Part shown: one piece after another, positions 340 to 30,128 of the stretch | Numbering within the stretch: position 1 is the stretch's first letter | Layout: each line of letters starts with the position of its first letter | From: a virus | Length of the DNA stretch: 39,415 nucleotides | Virus record (IMG/VR): IMGVR_UViG_3300028823_000325 | Location: 1 to 39,415 of that record | Direction: 5' to 3' (one strand) | The notes under the pieces: generated by a model | Seen by the model: the letters and a program-made list of their open reading frames with translations, nothing else | Told to the model about the DNA's origin: nothing | Database searches by the model: none | Program-made: the position numbers and the translations under genes

Positions 340-1995
340 ATGAAAATAGTTGACTACGAAAATGGGCATTTCATTATCTCTTTCAATAATACGTCAAAGG
401 AAGCTTTCTATGAAACTTTGGCAAAAGTGAAAACCCTTACAGGCCGGAGCTATAAGGATAAATTGTGGAAAGCTCCTGCGATAGAAACTAATTTAGACAT
501 ACTTGTACAGGAAGGATTTATATTTTCAGTTAAGGCAAAGGAATATATAAGAAATCTATACAGATCTAAACCGGAAAGAATATTACCAGAAGTAGACAAA
601 AGTCAATTGAAAGGATTATTTCCTTTTCAGATTGAAGGTGTGCAATTTTTATCCAGTAGACAAGGACACGGAATCATATCAGATCAGATGGGTTTAGGAA
701 AAACAATACAGGCTTTAGGTTATTTAAAACTACACCCGGAATTAAGACCAGCATTAGTAATCTGCCCAGCATCATTAAAATTAAACTGGCAAAGAGAAAT
801 AAATAAATGGTTACCTGAGGAAAGCATACAAATATTAAGTGGAAGGAATCCAGATCATTTAATGTTTGGAATAAATATATATATAATTAATTATGATATT
901 CTCGGTATAGGAGAAGTAATTATAAAAAATGGGAAAAAGAAAACTATATTAAAAGGTGGCTGGTTTTCCAGGATATTAAATGAAGAAAATATAAAAATAA
1001 TAATAGCTGATGAAATCCAGTATATAAGTAATCATAAAGCAATAAGAACAATAGCTTTTATAGAAACAGCAAGAAAAATAAAAAAAGTAATAGGACTTTC
1101 AGGCACACCAATAAAAAATAGACCGTCTGAGTTTTTTACTATTCTTAATTTAATTGAACCTAAAGTATTTCCAAACAGATGGAATTATCTACAGACTTTT
1201 TGTAATCCTAAAAATAACGGTTTCGGCTGGACTTTTAAAGGGCTTACTAATGGGAAAGAATTATACAGACTTATTTATCCTTTGATGATACGGAGAGAAA
1301 AAAAGGATGTATTAAAGGATTTACCTGATAAAATAAAAACGGTAATTCCATTAGAAGTAAACCAAGCCGATTTTCGTAAATATGAAAAAATGTATGAGGA
1401 AGTTTTTAATAAAATTGAAAATATGAAAGTAATTGAAAAAAGAGGGAATTATGAGAAATTAAAACAAATGGCTTATGCCTGTAAACGGGAATCTGTTCTT
1501 AATTGGATTGATGATTTTATATCTACTGGAGAGAAATTAGTTTTATTTTCTTATCACCGGGCTGTTTTAGATGATATTGAAGAGAAATTCAAAAATATTT
1601 CAGTACGAATTGATGGAAGTGTAAATATTAAATTAAGACAGGAAAGGGTAGATCAATTTCAATTAAATGAAAATATAAAGATTTTTTCTGGGCAGATCCA
1701 GGCTGCCGGGATAGGAATTAATTTGACTGTTGCTTCATCTGTGGCCTTTGTTGAGTTTGGGTGGAACCCGGCAGATCATGAGCAGGCGGAGGACAGGTGT
1801 CACCGGATAGGGCAGTCTGAATGTGTCAATGCCTATTACCTGGTTGCAGTAGGAACTATTGAAAATAAAATAGTAGAATTATTGATAGAAAAAGGAAAAA
1901 TGTTAGGGCAAGTATTGGATGGAAAAGAAAAGGATTTCTTTTCTGAAGATATATTAGAAGTTTTAATGAAAGGAGAAAATAACTATGATAAGTGA
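340..1995 (+). CDS. SNF2-family DEAD-like helicase/ATPase
   Basis: A 551-residue superfamily 2 ATPase of the SNF2 type. Walker A DQMGLGKT is at about 115-122, motif II is DEIQ (about 224-227) rather than DEAH, motif III SGTPIKN is at about 254-260, and the C-terminal lobe carries GIGINLTVA and the SNF2 signature DRCHRIGQ at about 485-492. Residues 1-75 resemble the small HARP-like N-terminal region of phage and SMARCAL1-like proteins. Such proteins translocate on or remodel DNA, and in phages they sit among replication and recombination genes, as here. It overlaps the next gene by 11 bases. Probable role: DNA remodelling or annealing during replication. Direct partners are unknown. Confidence 0.9.
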   Translation: MKIVDYENGHFIISFNNTSKEAFYETLAKVKTLTGRSYKDKLWKAPAIETNLDILVQEGFIFSVKAKEYIRNLYRSKPERILPEVDKSQLKGLFPFQIEGVQFLSSRQGHGIISDQMGLGKTIQALGYLKLHPELRPALVICPASLKLNWQREINKWLPEESIQILSGRNPDHLMFGINIYIINYDILGIGEVIIKNGKKKTILKGGWFSRILNEENIKIIIADEIQYISNHKAIRTIAFIETARKIKKVIGLSGTPIKNRPSEFFTILNLIEPKVFPNRWNYLQTFCNPKNNGFGWTFKGLTNGKELYRLIYPLMIRREKKDVLKDLPDKIKTVIPLEVNQADFRKYEKMYEEVFNKIENMKVIEKRGNYEKLKQMAYACKRESVLNWIDDFISTGEKLVLFSYHRAVLDDIEEKFKNISVRIDGSVNIKLRQERVDQFQLNENIKIFSGQIQAAGIGINLTVASSVAFVEFGWNPADHEQAEDRCHRIGQSECVNAYYLVAVGTIENKIVELLIEKGKMLGQVLDGKEKDFFSEDILEVLMKGENNYDK

Positions 1996-5069: not shown

Positions 5070-6151
5070 AAATAAATAGACAAGTTTTTCAAGACATACT
5101 TGAAAAAGCCATTTTATGTACTGCCAAAGAAGGACTTTTTTCTGATGCTTTTTTATTTGAAAATGAAACTATCAATGCATATAATTTTGAAGTAGCTATA
5201 ATGATTTCTTTACCATTTTCTTTTTATAAGGAAAAATTTGCTGTAAAAGCTATTAATTTATACAAATTAGTAAAAAAAATACCAGATGAGAATATTGAAA
5301 TTATTCTTGAAAAAGATAGTAAATTGATTATTAAAACAAATCATATTGAAGCCTCATTACAATTATTAAAAGATGATTTTTTTCATGAATTAAAAGAATT
5401 GTCTGTTAATGAATGGATTGATTTATCAGAAGACTTTTATATAGGATTAAAAATGAGTTTAATGGATAATAATAATTTTCTTTATCCTGGAGTATGTGGA
5501 AAAGATGGGAAATTATATTCTTTAGATGGTAAAAAATGTAGTATTTATGACACTAAAAAAGATATAGATTATTTTTTAATTTCAAATGAAAATATAAAAA
5601 AAATTCTCCGTATTTTTCCTGGTAAAATAATTAATTGTTACAATGGAAAATCATGGTTAATATTTAAAAACTATCATATTACTTTTGCATGTAAAAAGAT
5701 TATTGATGATATTTTTAAAACAGATGCTTGTGAAAATTTATTTAAACGATATGCTTTATGGGATTCCGATATACAAGGTGATTTTCCAGAAAATTACAAA
5801 GATACAATTGATCGATCTTCTTTACTAACGGATGAAGAATATATTTCATTACGATTTAGCAATGACTTTATTGAATGTATTACTAAAAAAGCAAAAAATG
5901 AATATTATGAAAAAGTAAAATGGAAACATAAGATGAATAAAACATTTGAACAATTTCAAATTTCTACTAATTATAAAAATATTTTATACGGATTAAAAAG
6001 AGCATCTTCTTTTTATTTAAAAGATTCTGAAAGTATAAATAAGATAGAAGAAGAAAGAGAAATGAATCCTAAAGTAAAAAAAATAGGAAAAAGAATCATT
6101 TTTTTTGCAGATAATTATAAACTTATTATAGTTTGTTATGAGAAAGAATAA
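5066..6151 (+). CDS. DNA polymerase beta-type sliding clamp (probable)
   Basis: A 361-residue product, almost the length of bacterial DnaN (about 366). Visible clamp-like features are an N-terminal MKINRQVFQDILEKA helix, the segment INLYKLVKKIPDENIEI (about 78-95) that matches the 'hKLlKklPd..v.i' strand-helix pattern of domain I, and a C-terminal RIIFFADNYKLIIV strand pair in place of the canonical C-terminal strands. Divergence is high, so the call also rests on context: it directly precedes the polymerase (TAATG overlap) and the phage has its own clamp loader. ATG 5066 with GAAAGGAAAA upstream is preferred over an in-frame ATG at 5000. Confidence 0.6.
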   Translation: MKINRQVFQDILEKAILCTAKEGLFSDAFLFENETINAYNFEVAIMISLPFSFYKEKFAVKAINLYKLVKKIPDENIEIILEKDSKLIIKTNHIEASLQLLKDDFFHELKELSVNEWIDLSEDFYIGLKMSLMDNNNFLYPGVCGKDGKLYSLDGKKCSIYDTKKDIDYFLISNENIKKILRIFPGKIINCYNGKSWLIFKNYHITFACKKIIDDIFKTDACENLFKRYALWDSDIQGDFPENYKDTIDRSSLLTDEEYISLRFSNDFIECITKKAKNEYYEKVKWKHKMNKTFEQFQISTNYKNILYGLKRASSFYLKDSESINKIEEEREMNPKVKKIGKRIIFFADNYKLIIVCYEKE

Positions 6152-8706
6152 TGAAAGAATCTTTTTTTGAAGAAATGGGAATAGATTTTCTTGAAATAAA
6201 AAAAAAGGAAACCTGCGAAAAATGTGGTTTATATAAAAATTGTATAAGTCCGAAAATGGAACCATCGGGAAGAGGAAGAAAAAAAATATTATTAATAGGA
6301 GAAGCTCCCGAAAAAGTGGAAGATGAAGAGAATACACAATTTATAAGTCGTTCTGGACAATTATTAAGAAGAACAATAGAAGAAGCAGGATTATTTCTTG
6401 ATCGAGATTTTAGAAAAACTAATGCAGTCAGATGTAGACCACCAAATAATAGAACACCTTATACAAAAGAGATAAATATTTGTAGAAAATATATTTATAA
6501 GGAAATAAAAGAATATAAACCCAAAGTAATTATATTGACTGGAGCTATTGCATTACAAAGTTTGTTAGGGCAGAGAATAACAGGAAGAATTGAGAAAGTA
6601 CCTTTTTCAGATTGGGCAGGAGAATGTATTCCTGACCAGGAATTAAAATTATGGATTTGTCCTGTTTTTCATCCTGCTTATATTATGAGAAATGATGCTG
6701 ATCCAGTTTTATTAAAAATATGGAAAAAGCAGATTGAAAAAGCTATCTCTATGATTAACATTCCTATCTATATACATAATTATGAATCTGATGTGATTAT
6801 TATGACAGAAGAAAATGAAGTATGTACTTTTATAGAAAATATGATGATTACTACAAATTCTCTTCTTTCTTTTGACTACGAAACTACAGGAAAAAAACCA
6901 CATAGAGAAGGACAGAGAATAATTTCAGTTTCTATTTCAGACGGGATATATGCCTGGTCTTTTCCATTTTTCTCTGAAAGTGAAAGATTTATTCAACTAT
7001 GGAAAAAGTTTTTATCTTCCAACACAAAAAAGATCGCTCATTATGCCAGTTTTGAAAGATTGTGGTCGATAGAAAAAATAAATACGGATATTGAAGGACA
7101 ATTATGGGATACTGCTTTAATACAACATATTTTAAGAAATGATAAAAATAAACAGTTAAAATTCTGGTCTTATGTAAAATTTGGTATTTTAGGCTATGAT
7201 GATAATTTGCATTCGTTTATATCTAAAGCAAAAGAAAATGAAGATGAGAAATCGGCAAATGCTTTTAATAGATTAGATGAAGCATCAAAAAAAGAAGTAT
7301 TACATTATGGTGGATTAGACTCTTTATTAACACATAAATTACAACAGGAGCAATCATCTGAATTAATTAATAATAAAAATTATATAAAAGCGTATGAACT
7401 TTTTATTGAAGGAGATGAATATCTTGTAAAATGTTCGCAAAATGGAATTAGATTAAATTTAGAGGAAATGGAAAAACAGAAAATAAGAATAAAAAGAAAA
7501 TTAGAAAAATTACATTTAGATATAATGGAAAGTAAAGAAATACAAGAATGGGACAGAATAAAACCTTTTAATTATAATAGTATAAAAGATATAAAACACT
7601 TACTTTTTGATTTAATGAATATTCATCATTTTATATTAACTAAAACAGGAAATCCAGCAGTAAATAAAGAAGCTTTAGAAAAAATGAATCTTCGAATAAC
7701 AAATAGAATACTTGAATACAGAAGATGGAATAAGGCTTTAAATACTTATATAGCTCAATATTCCCGTGAACAGATTAATGGTATTCTTCATCCTTTTTTC
7801 CATTTATCTACTGTAACAACTTATCGATCATCAAGTAGTAGACCGAATTTTCAGAATATTCCCAAACAGGATAAAGAAATAAAACAAATACTCCGGTCTT
7901 TTATTATTCCCAGGAAAGGAAATAGATTGACTTCTTATGACTTTAAACAAATGGAAGTATGTGTTGCTGCCTGTTATAATCAAGATCCTAATCTTATTGC
8001 ATATATTAAAGATACAACAAAAGATATGCATAGAGATATGGCAGCATTACTTTTTATGAAAAATAAAGAAGAGATAACAAAAGAGGAAAGACAAGAAGTA
8101 AAGAATAAATTTGTATTCCCCGCTTTTTATGGCAGTTATTATGAACAAATGGCACCAGATTTGTGGGAAAATATACCAAAATATACAAAAGTACATTTAA
8201 AAGAAAAAGGAATAAAAAATTTATTTGCTTTTATTGAACACGTTCATTATATAGAAAATTATTTATGGGAAAGTCTCTTTCCTGTTTATGCTGATTGGAA
8301 AGTAAAAACATATAAAGAATATCAAAAGAAAGGTTATATTGATTTTTATACTGGTTTTCGCTGTTGGGGGCCAATGAAGAAAAATGAAGCTATTAATTAT
8401 AGAATACAAGGAACGGCTTTTCACATTCTTCTTTGGACTTTAATCCAAGTAATGAAAAGAACAGAAAGTAATAAAAGAAGTTATATTATAGGACAAATTC
8501 ATGATGATATTGAAGGAGATATCCACCCGGATGATGAAGAAGAATTTGATTATCTTGTCTGGCTTTATGCTACACAAAAAGTTCGGGAGCATTGGGATTG
8601 GATTAATGTACCTCTCCGGGTTGAAAAAGAACGATCAGAAATAGATGGTAATTGGGCTGAAATGAAGGATTGCGGATTTCTGGATTTTAGTAAGAAAGGA
8701 AATTAA
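6151..8706 (+). CDS. Family 4 uracil-DNA glycosylase fused to family A DNA polymerase
   Basis: An 851-residue replicative polymerase with the domain order known from SPO1. Residues 20-200 are UDG family 4-like, with GEAPEKVED (50-58), QFISRSGQLL (63-72) and HPAYIMR (174-180). The four likely 4Fe-4S cysteines are C22, C25, C95 and C111. Residues 238-400 are the 3'-5' exonuclease: FDYETT (D242, E244), HYASFE, D320 and YGGLD (386-390). The polymerase follows: motif A YDFKQMEVCV (596-605), motif B RQEVK...FYG (647-661) and motif C IHDDIEGD (near 783). The ATG overlaps the clamp stop. It should copy the phage genome. Whether the glycosylase domain still excises uracil is open, since the Gly after GEAP is replaced by Glu. 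Confidence 0.92.
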   Translation: MKESFFEEMGIDFLEIKKKETCEKCGLYKNCISPKMEPSGRGRKKILLIGEAPEKVEDEENTQFISRSGQLLRRTIEEAGLFLDRDFRKTNAVRCRPPNNRTPYTKEINICRKYIYKEIKEYKPKVIILTGAIALQSLLGQRITGRIEKVPFSDWAGECIPDQELKLWICPVFHPAYIMRNDADPVLLKIWKKQIEKAISMINIPIYIHNYESDVIIMTEENEVCTFIENMMITTNSLLSFDYETTGKKPHREGQRIISVSISDGIYAWSFPFFSESERFIQLWKKFLSSNTKKIAHYASFERLWSIEKINTDIEGQLWDTALIQHILRNDKNKQLKFWSYVKFGILGYDDNLHSFISKAKENEDEKSANAFNRLDEASKKEVLHYGGLDSLLTHKLQQEQSSELINNKNYIKAYELFIEGDEYLVKCSQNGIRLNLEEMEKQKIRIKRKLEKLHLDIMESKEIQEWDRIKPFNYNSIKDIKHLLFDLMNIHHFILTKTGNPAVNKEALEKMNLRITNRILEYRRWNKALNTYIAQYSREQINGILHPFFHLSTVTTYRSSSSRPNFQNIPKQDKEIKQILRSFIIPRKGNRLTSYDFKQMEVCVAACYNQDPNLIAYIKDTTKDMHRDMAALLFMKNKEEITKEERQEVKNKFVFPAFYGSYYEQMAPDLWENIPKYTKVHLKEKGIKNLFAFIEHVHYIENYLWESLFPVYADWKVKTYKEYQKKGYIDFYTGFRCWGPMKKNEAINYRIQGTAFHILLWTLIQVMKRTESNKRSYIIGQIHDDIEGDIHPDDEEEFDYLVWLYATQKVREHWDWINVPLRVEKERSEIDGNWAEMKDCGFLDFSKKGN

Positions 8707-28590: not shown

Positions 28591-28699
28591 TTATATACCA
28601 ATAATCTAATGACGACAATGGAATTAAAATCCCAATAATAAAACCCACAATTACTGCACTTAAATAAAAATTAATAATTTTTTTCATTACTTTTTTCAT
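28508..28699 (-). CDS. Possible small membrane protein, 63 aa
   Basis: Reading leftward, ATG at 28699 lies inside the 3' end of ssb and opens a peptide with a basic N-terminus (MKKVMKK) and two hydrophobic stretches (FYLSAVIVGFIIGILIPL and YWYIIIHLVILE). It could close the leftward operon, but it overlaps 28393-28590 on the other strand. Confidence 0.3.
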   Translation of the reverse strand: MKKVMKKIINFYLSAVIVGFIIGILIPLSSLDYWYIIIHLVILESFPPGYFFLLWKSVSYVPI

Positions 28700-29033
28700 C
28701 TTTCTTATATTTAGGTTTAAACTCCACATTATCAGCAACCACATAAACCCGTGACTTTCCTGTTCCGTCTGCATCTTTCCATCTATCCTGTTTTAACCTG
28801 CCAATTATCCGAACACCACTGCCTTTTTTAAGATATTCCGCGCATACCTCGGCAAGCCGCGCCCATGTGGTTATGTTGAAAAATGATATTTCTTTTTGGT
28901 ACTCATTATCCTGTTTAAAAAAACGTTTCGATGCGATTGTAAAATTACATAACTGTATGCCTTTTTGTGTATGTGTTAATTTTGGATCGGCCGTTAGGTT
29001 TCCCTCAAGTAAAATTGAATTTAGACTGTTCAT
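28671..29033 (-). CDS. ssb: Single-stranded DNA-binding protein SSB
   Basis: A 120-residue OB-fold SSB. MNSLNSILLEGNLTADPKLT, FTIASKRFFKQ, EISFFNITTWARLAEVCAEY and GSGVRIIGRLKQDRW appear in the standard order, followed by VVADNVEFKP. The MNSLNSILLEGNL start and KEISFF..TWA.LAE.CAEYLKKG.GVR..GRLKQDRW pattern are those of spirochaete SSBs. The usual acidic DDDIPF tip that recruits host partners is absent. AAGGAGAACTTT precedes ATG. It is GC-richer than flanking phage genes and transcribed against them, suggesting acquisition from a bacterium. Confidence 0.93.
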   Translation of the reverse strand: MNSLNSILLEGNLTADPKLTHTQKGIQLCNFTIASKRFFKQDNEYQKEISFFNITTWARLAEVCAEYLKKGSGVRIIGRLKQDRWKDADGTGKSRVYVVADNVEFKPKYKKDEKSNEKNY

Positions 29034-29089: not shown

Positions 29090-29392
29090 TCAATCAGGGA
29101 TTTCGCTATCATCCAGCATTCCAGTGTTATAAGCACTAATATTATCAATACCTATCATCTCCACGAATTTTATAGCTTTTTCCCATATTTCCCTATCTTC
29201 CCAATCGTCGATAATAGAGTTAATAATATCCCAGTTTATAGCGGGCGTGATTAGGCTAAAAAATAATACTTTTCTTAGATCAGGCGCATTATTCATTATT
29301 GTTTCATATGCTGCTTGTTCTCTTGTTTTAATTTTGTAGTTCAGTTCTATTATTCTTTTTTTTTTATTCTTTCGTGTTACAATTGCTTTCAT
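29090..29392 (-). CDS. Hypothetical protein, 100 aa, downstream of a ribozyme motif
   Basis: A 100-residue protein with a basic N-terminus (MKAIVTRKNKKKR) and an acidic C-terminal half (INSIIDDWEDREIWEKAIKF, MLDDSEIPD). Family unknown. Its ribosome site AGGAGGA is paired in stem III of the hammerhead motif at 29397-29478, so translation may depend on ribozyme folding or cleavage. Confidence 0.6.
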   Translation of the reverse strand: MKAIVTRKNKKKRIIELNYKIKTREQAAYETIMNNAPDLRKVLFFSLITPAINWDIINSIIDDWEDREIWEKAIKFVEMIGIDNISAYNTGMLDDSEIPD

Positions 29393-29396
29393 AAAA

Positions 29397-29478
29397 TCCT
29401 CCTGGTTTCGGCCTTGCCTTAGACCCGCTGGCGTTTCCGCTCATCAGTACCCCGGCATCAGGGGTAGACCCGGAGGAG
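29397..29478 (-). ncRNA. Hammerhead ribozyme motif (type III), variant with insertion
   Basis: Read on the - strand: GGAGTCCTC-complement strand CTCCTCCGG, cleavage triplet GTC (cut between 29467 and 29466), stem I TACCCC/GGGGTA (29466-29461 with 29453-29448), CTGATGA core (29447-29441), stem II GGTCT/AGGCC with loop AAGGCA (29425-29410), GAAA core (29409-29406), then CCAGGAGGA. Stem III pairs CC-A-GGAGGA with TCCTCC-G-GG, covering the Shine-Dalgarno of 29090-29392. Every core base is present, but 15 extra bases (29440-29426, able to form GCG-GAAA-CGC) sit between CTGATGA and stem II. Activity may be reduced or switchable. Confidence 0.7.
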
Positions 29479-29485
29479 TCCGAGA

Positions 29486-29728
29486 TTAATTGCTTTTCAT
29501 TATTTTTACTAAATCTATAAAAAAGTAATAAAGCATATCGGCTATTGTTATTTCAGTGCTTGTTGCTTCAAACATTTGCCATCTGATTGCTTTATGATTA
29601 TCCCCTGTAAAATTATCAGAAATATATTTAGCTGCTTGAGCGGGTGTTCTATTTCTCATGGCTTTATAATATATTTTTTCACATATCTGTTTATTTCTTT
29701 TATTTAATGTTCCAAAATTATAATCCAT
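29486..29728 (-). CDS. Hypothetical protein, 80 aa, downstream of a ribozyme motif
   Basis: An 80-residue basic protein (GTLNKRNKQICEKIYYKAMR ... AAKYISDNFTGDN), helical, unknown family. ATG 29728 is chosen because AAGGAGGGTGATT places it at the right distance; a GTG two codons earlier would overlap the ribosome site. That site lies in the hammerhead motif at 29734-29801. Confidence 0.6.
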   Translation of the reverse strand: MDYNFGTLNKRNKQICEKIYYKAMRNRTPAQAAKYISDNFTGDNHKAIRWQMFEATSTEITIADMLYYFFIDLVKIMKSN

Positions 29729-29733
29729 AATCA

Positions 29734-29801
29734 CCCTCCTTAAGTTTCGGCCTGCCTTGACCTCATCAGTACCCCGGCTTCAGGGGTAGACCCGGAGGAG
29801 T
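29734..29801 (-). ncRNA. Hammerhead ribozyme (type III), canonical core
   Basis: Read on the - strand: CTCCTCCGG, cleavage triplet GTC (29791-29789; cut before 29788), stem I TACCCC/GGGGTA with 7-base loop (29788-29770), CTGATGA (29769-29763), stem II GGTC/GGCC with loop AAGGCA (29762-29749), GAAA (29748-29745), then CTTAAGGAGGG. All invariant hammerhead bases are present in the right order and spacing. Stem III pairs C-T-T with GGG and GGAGG with CCTCC (two unpaired A), so its 3' strand is the Shine-Dalgarno of 29486-29728. A 43-base block is shared with the copy at 29397, with a single mismatch. Confidence 0.88.
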
Positions 29802-29806
29802 CCGGG

Positions 29807-30001
29807 TTATTTCATCATAGTTGCAAAAATAATATTTTTCTGATAAAACATAGCTACTGGAACTCTTAAAATATTCCATTCATCTTGATTCATTTCTTTT
29901 ATTATTTCAGCTCCTATTTTATCAAAAAATATTGTCTCGTCTGTTATTTTCACAACATGCTCTGCAAGTTTTTTCGCTAAACTAATAATCATATTTTCCA
30001 T
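29807..30001 (-). CDS. Hypothetical protein, 64 aa
   Basis: A 64-residue protein (MENMIISLAKKLAEHVVKI ... GAEIIKEMNQDEWNILRVPV), helical, unknown. First gene of the leftward operon. AAGGAGGATGATT precedes ATG 30001; an ATG two codons upstream is closer to the ribosome site than normal. The leader (30002-30042) has a CGGC/GCCG hairpin before the ribosome site that loosely resembles the 3' half of the hammerhead motifs. Confidence 0.55.
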   Translation of the reverse strand: MENMIISLAKKLAEHVVKITDETIFFDKIGAEIIKEMNQDEWNILRVPVAMFYQKNIIFATMMK

Positions 30002-30049
30002 AATCATCCTCCTTGTAGATTCCGGCTTTTCTTGCCGTTATCTATTAAT

Positions 30050-30078
30050 AATGTAGCACTATTATTTTAAAAAGTCAA
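30050..30078 (-). promoter_or_regulatory. Promoter of the leftward ribozyme/ssb operon
   Basis: On the - strand TTGACT (30078-30073), 17 bases, TACATT (30055-30050), with TGC directly before the -10 (extended -10 form). Transcription would begin near 30043 and run through three small genes, both hammerheads and ssb. Confidence 0.65.
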
Positions 30079-30128
30079 GGAGTTTTTAAAGAAAAATACA
30101 AAAAAACGAAGAAATTTTTACTTTTTTC

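Follow-up and report, generated by a model that had tools for sequence, protein, structure and literature searches.

Tandem type III hammerhead ribozymes with Shine-Dalgarno sequences in stem III: candidates for cutting a phage message and unmasking its downstream genes

What does a self-cleaving ribozyme do for a phage when it lies between two small genes and holds the ribosome-binding site of the second? According to a review, the function of prokaryotic and phage hammerhead ribozymes (HHRs) is an open question (PMC6155905). In prophages, genes flanked by HHR clusters have been described, and the clusters are reported to cut polycistronic transcripts of about 2 kb in vitro and, in one case, in E. 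coli (PMC3088659). In the locus described here, the Shine-Dalgarno sequence (SD) of the next gene forms part of the ribozyme itself.

The window, that is, the whole 39.4-kb viral record that was analyzed, encodes a portal, a terminase, a head protease and a DNA polymerase. Plus-strand genes, in two blocks, enclose a small minus-strand cluster, which consists of genes 1, 2 and 3 and a gene for single-strand DNA-binding protein (SSB). Searches of Pfam, PHROGs, NCBIfam and PADLOC gave no family for genes 1, 2 or 3. Gene 2 starts at the ATG at 29728, in place of the GTG at 29734 given in a mechanical list of open reading frames. The cluster is bounded by promoter-like and terminator-like elements (Table 1), and genes 1–3 and the SSB gene appear to share one transcript. 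This agrees with the initial annotation, in which the mRNA holding the first ribozyme was taken to be polycistronic. The terminator-like stem is similar to the CCCGGA..TCCGGG hairpins of the window hammerheads. At the other end of the cluster, the leader of gene 1 (29985-30085(-)) has a fold much stronger than shuffles (z -6.3), part of which precedes the probable start of transcription, and a UAGAU-CGGC-GCCG-UCUA hairpin is found immediately 5′ of the gene 1 SD. Elsewhere in the window, positions 6151-8706(+) encode an 851-aa protein that matches a uracil-DNA glycosylase domain, a 3′-5′ exonuclease and a family A DNA polymerase, and is an apparent fusion.

The first hammerhead (copy 1) occupies 29801-29734(-) and fills the gap between genes 1 and 2. 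It is of type III, with a complete core and all three stems at the coordinates claimed for it. The GTC cut site, with predicted cleavage between 29789 and 29788, the 6-bp stem I (UACCCC/GGGGUA), CUGAUGA, the 4-bp stem II (GGUC/GGCC) and GAAA had all been read correctly from the sequence. The description of stem III needs amendment: GGAGG does form its outer 3′ strand, but AAGGAGG is not a single continuous strand (a 2-nt AA bulge intervenes). The inner part of stem III, GGGU/AC(UU), has 4 bp, consisting only of U-A, G-C and two G.U pairs, and the SD helix CCUCC/GGAGG sits outside the bulge, beyond this inner part. Behind the stop codon of gene 1 is a hairpin that shares bases with the 5′ side of stem III. 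This hairpin competes with stem III before cleavage and, once the RNA is cut, would cap the upstream mRNA at its 3′ end.

A second hammerhead (copy 2), missing from the initial annotation, lies in tandem at 29484-29398(-), between genes 2 and 3. Its 5′ half, GGACTCCTCCGGGTCTACCCCTGANGCCGGGGTACTGATGAG, is identical to that of copy 1, and the two copies are recent duplicates. In copy 2, stem III consists of 3 inner bp, one A.G mismatch and then 6 bp (UCCUCC/GGAGGA), which is a cleaner pairing with the SD than in copy 1. Both copies contain the CUGAUGA...GAAA core, an NUH cut site and the U16.1-A15.1 pair, and in both, loops close stems I and II and stem III is open. Each post-stop hairpin starts 0-2 nt behind the stop codon and is mutually exclusive with stem III.

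Table 1. Coordinates of the minus-strand cluster and its two hammerheads in the window
Feature	Positions	Strand	Remarks
Promoter-like -35/-10 ahead of gene 1	30078-30050	-	TTGACT-17-TACATT
Gene 1 (64 aa)	29807..30001	-	own SD AAGGAGG; no hammerhead upstream
Copy 1 post-stop hairpin	29790..29807	-	ACCCGGA-CUCC-UCCGGGU, directly after gene 1 stop codon
Copy 1 anti-SD	29794..29798	-	CCUCC, outer stem III 5′ strand
Copy 1 core	29744..29793	-	Rfam match, simulation, alignment
Copy 1 stem I	29788-29783/29775-29770	-	
Copy 1 CUGAUGA	29769-29763	-	
Copy 1 stem II	29762-29759/29752-29749	-	
Copy 1 GAAA	29748-29745	-	
Copy 1 loop I x loop II contact			GCC x GGC
Gene 2 SD	29735..29739	-	GGAGG, outer stem III 3′ strand of copy 1
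Gene 2 (80 aa)	29486..29728	-	
Copy 2 post-stop hairpin	29469..29484	-	CUCGGA-CUCC-UCCGGG, after gene 2 stop codon
Copy 2 anti-SD	29472..29477	-	UCCUCC, outer stem III 5′ strand
Copy 2 core	29405..29471	-	cut between 29467 and 29466
Copy 2 stem I	29466-29461/29453-29448	-	
Copy 2 CUGAUGA	29447-29441	-	
Copy 2 insertion (15 nt) between A9 and stem II	29426..29440	-	hairpin GCG-GAAA-CGC + linker CAGCG
Copy 2 stem II	29425-29422/29413-29410	-	GGUC/GGCC
Copy 2 GAAA	29409-29406	-	
Copy 2 loop I x loop II contact			UGCC x GGCA
Gene 3 SD	29398..29402	-	GGAGG, outer stem III 3′ strand of copy 2
Gene 3 (100 aa)	29090..29392	-	
SSB gene, last in cluster	28671..29033	-	PF00436 E 1.2e-28; no hammerhead upstream
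Terminator-like stem after last cluster gene	28574-28554	-	CCTGGAG..CTCCGGG + T-tract

Both copies are confirmed, at the level of sequence, as type III hammerheads. In the Rfam search that had been proposed as a check, RF00008 matches copy 1 at 27.6 bits (E 9e-4 in 501 b), and the Rfam type III model matches copy 2 at 22.2 bits, both below the gathering score of 48.5 bits, which is a library cut-off and not a structural feature. A scan at this threshold returned no matches in the whole window or in 9 other phage loci that bear the motif, and the cut-off is therefore uninformative here. The strict hammerhead motif occurred once in 1500 Markov-simulated windows of the same composition. Covariation in related phages, also raised in the initial annotation, is present in stems I and II: when 11 related HHRs, the two window copies among them, are aligned without the inserted bases, 22 cells are double-changed compared to 7.9 in shuffles, the score is 0.407 compared to 0.183, with 0 of 500 shuffles as high, and the core is conserved. 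In addition, the complementarity between loop I and loop II, a computed pairing only, exceeds that of permutations (0/1000). This contact is GCC:GGC in the window phage and in the contig L140, and GCU:AGC in other relatives.

Patterns representing parts of the motif retrieved more than 100 viral contigs, and 64 non-redundant type III examples were obtained, genome contigs included, most of which sit just 5′ of an ORF. BLASTN of the region against phages gave chance matches only, an exact 19-mer from the 5′ half was absent from the viral contigs searched, and retrieval based on the SSB gave only distant relatives. The pattern GTACTGATGAGCSGNRASGC returned an already known contig and one chance match, L273, which has no hammerhead.

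In copy 1, stem II directly follows A9, whereas in copy 2 a hairpin and linker intervene. Comparable insertions occupy this site in other phages. The viral contig L230, whose capsid protein is 62% identical to that of the window, has two tandem HHRs (697-760(+) and 1327-1390(+)) in which the site holds GCC-GAAA-GGC or GCC-GAGA-GGC followed by CCTG, and in L150, L152, L153 and L159 it holds a longer hairpin followed by CTTG. Window copy 1, L140 and the sister HHRs L172, L173 and L209 do not have the insertion. The inserted stems differ in sequence yet pair, the linkers are 4-5 nt long, and the loops in the window and L230 are of the GNRA type. This insertion was not found in the available part of PMC3088659, which reports other core insertions. 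The inserted-hairpin variant, if active, would mean that the hammerhead core accommodates a fourth helix at A9.

Two tandem type III hammerheads would cut the nascent polycistronic RNA 5′ of genes 2 and 3. When the RNA is folded as a hammerhead, outer stem III would be an anti-SD:SD helix, which would bar ribosomes from the next gene. Because the anti-SD lies 5′ of the cut, cleavage would separate it from the SD. The anti-SD may then be taken up by the hairpin of the upstream product, and the SD would be free on a new mRNA that begins at stem I. As a likely result, most translation of the downstream genes would be from processed, insulated messages. The chances are about even that the tandem HHRs cut the message, mask the SD in the catalytic fold and unmask it on cleavage. 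This best explanation draws on sequence, pairing, homology, recurrence in relatives and predicted energies, from which we infer a single transcript, cleavage in vivo, product release and an effect on translation.

In the energy model, the probability that the SD is unpaired is 0.007 (copy 1) and 0.002 (copy 2) in the hammerhead fold, and 0.59 and 0.36, respectively, in the cleaved 3′ product. The initial proposal that cleavage frees the SD is thus borne out by the model. The companion proposal, that the uncleaved RNA hides the SD, stands for the catalytic fold of both copies but not for the ground-state hairpin of copy 1, in which the SD is 69% free. This hairpin form is predicted to be 5-7 kcal/mol better than the hammerhead form by a model in which neither Mg2+ nor the loop contact is credited. 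The uncleaved RNA of copy 1 is not fully closed because the post-stop hairpin competes with stem III, and therefore cleavage may change little there. For copy 2, the model puts the hammerhead form no more than 1.3 kcal/mol above the ground state, and the SD is closed in the ground state itself (0.002). The modeled product duplexes have dG values of -5.2 and -7.7 kcal/mol and Kd values of about 2e-4 and 4e-6 M (copies 1 and 2). The products are predicted to hold together weakly because the upstream product refolds its hairpin over the anti-SD, and in the model this recapture of the anti-SD can favor product release. In relatives, the modeled changes on cleavage are modest, from 0.49 to 0.57 in L230b and from 0.33 to 0.54 in L088. 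For L140, which is without a comparable competing hairpin, the model keeps the two products bound (Kd 3e-11 M). All of these folding energies omit Mg2+, the tertiary loop-loop contact, ribosomes, and transcription with its co-transcriptional folding.

Does the SD pairing exceed chance expectation? Taken together, the type III HHRs with a clear SD have no excess of SD complementarity on their 5′ side (mean rank 0.49, n=32, 50-nt flank; mean rank 0.50 with an 18-nt flank, own SD compared to other SDs), and type II HHRs have none either (mean rank 0.50, n=51). SD masking as a general property of phage hammerheads is therefore ruled out. In the window phage itself, 0 of 34 other SD-bearing genes have an anti-SD of equal strength at this distance.

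Among the nearest relatives of the window, both L230 HHRs have CUCCUCA(A) upstream that pairs with (U)UGAGGAG of the SD region, and L088, with a ribozyme of similar sequence, has UCCUUAAGG that pairs with CCUUGAGGA. In L230 and L088, the anti-SD is further upstream than in the window and an outer ACC:GGU extends the SD helix. A third contig, L140, whose HHR is unrelated, pairs CCUCCUC with GAGGAGG directly behind a bulge, as in the window. Compared to own-genome windows, the combined p is 5e-7 to 2.5e-6, and most cases beat such windows singly, for a set of few relatives that were picked after they had been seen (L140 by a pattern that demands an SD) and in which the window copies form one duplicate pair and the L230 copies another. 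Copy 1 beats own-genome windows only with a short flank (p 0.04). Compared to shuffled flanks, the combined p is weaker, at 0.005 to 0.013 for a 50-nt flank, and a 20-nt flank gives no excess of SD pairing. The pairing is partly due to composition, with C-rich hairpins lying beside purine-rich SDs. Since its members were chosen after the fact, the recurrence of SD masking in the nearest relatives (L230, twice, and L088) is graded as suggestive only.

Immediately 5′ of stem III, hairpins are strongly enriched across 63 phage type III hammerheads from viral and genome contigs (mean z -1.15, p 1e-6; control stretch -0.11), and therefore cleavage would give the upstream piece of mRNA a hairpin 3′ end. 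In L230 and L088, the loop region of the hairpin is a 13-base motif, GGMACAGCTGACC (GGMACAGCUGACC), found at 625-637(+) and 1261-1273(+) in L230, at 8034-8022(-) in L088 and in no other locus among those compared. The stems differ yet pair (GGAGCGG/CCGCUCC and GGGAUAGG/CCUAUUCC), and the 3′ arm overlaps the anti-SD. These hairpins are located at or after the upstream stop codon, 5′ of the hammerhead. In L230, the upstream gene terminates at the TGA inside the motif, and in L088 no ORF of at least 45 aa ends at the motif. A different arrangement is seen in L142, which has two hammerheads and, 3′ of each, an SD in a small hairpin loop (UAGAC-UGGAGG-GUCUA).

The same observations can be read in other ways. 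A quite plausible, if not the favored, account is that the hammerheads serve processing only, yielding single-gene messages with a hairpin 3′ end upstream and a structured 5′-OH end downstream, and that the SD pairing is incidental. Such an account matches the cutting of polycistronic transcripts by prophage clusters (PMC3088659), the enrichment of hairpins directly 5′ of stem III, and the chance level of SD complementarity across all HHRs. It sits less well with the strong 5′ anti-SDs of this lineage, whose positions vary and which have no equal among the 34 other phage genes. A constitutive, fast hammerhead would mean processing and not a switch.

In another reading, the post-stop hairpin and stem III may form a conditional switch, perhaps set by the terminating ribosome, in which the one that forms determines whether the RNA is cut and thereby couples genes 2 and 3 to upstream translation. 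This is a special form of the unmasking explanation, with which its likelihood overlaps, and is in itself rather unlikely. The position of the hairpins just past the stop codon in both copies, where they exclude stem III, favors it, as does the L230/L088 hairpin, with its shared loop, its different but paired stems and its 3′ arm over the anti-SD; copy 2, however, favors near-hammerhead pairing regardless (penalty 1.3 kcal/mol). It is more doubtful still that the hammerheads are decayed or inactive, copy 2 especially so owing to its insertion. In copy 2, A9 and stem II are indeed separated by 15 nt, and a core insertion elsewhere was measured to reduce activity (PMC3088659). However, the core is intact in both window copies, and phages with the same kind of insertion otherwise retain the core, the stems and the loop contact.

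Cutting of the polycistronic message is, on this analysis, most likely the best-founded function; the HHRs probably split the mRNA between genes and, within this lineage, unmask the SD as well. As for whether unmasking brings delay, insulation from upstream sequence or a conditional switch, the sequence does not tell which.

In translational riboswitches, mutually exclusive anti-SD and anti-anti-SD hairpins govern access to the SD. The window hammerheads are alike in having mutually exclusive hairpins of this kind, but they have no visible ligand domain, and in the model the strands would be parted by self-cleavage instead. Compared to RF00008 and the HHRs of Perreault et al. 2011 (PMC3088659), they share the core, the GUC, the three stems and the loop pairs, as well as the arrangement in tandem copies between small phage genes. 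They differ in that outer stem III is an anti-SD:SD helix and, in copy 2, in the additional hairpin inserted after A9; the terms “Shine” and “ribosome bind” are absent from the available text of PMC3088659. The same paper describes HHphage of the haloviruses HF1/HF2, which is similar in that a hammerhead lies 13 nt 5′ of a phage start codon and a mapped transcript 5′ end is near the cut. It belongs to an archaeal virus and is a core variant, and SD masking is not described for it in that text.

The closest functional parallels are engineered. Hammerhead and twister constructs have been built with an SD and an anti-SD in a ribozyme stem, and cleavage switches them on (PMC5052635). The hammerhead of Wieland & Hartig 2008, as cited in PMC5052635, and the twister, in which cleavage turns translation on, resemble the window copies in this stem. 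These SD-sequestering ribozymes are artificial, whereas those of the window would be natural and without an aptamer. Natural unmasking of an SD by a ribozyme was not described in the open-licence literature searched, and such an absence is not proof. The fuller proposal, that the next gene can be translated only after self-cleavage, that the post-stop hairpin makes release one-way, and that this occurs in tandem within an operon, has somewhat less than an even chance. If true, the locus would be a natural counterpart of the switch built by synthetic biologists, and phage hammerheads of this lineage would have a concrete role, in which cleavage removes a built-in anti-SD and thereby turns on, or times, each downstream gene.
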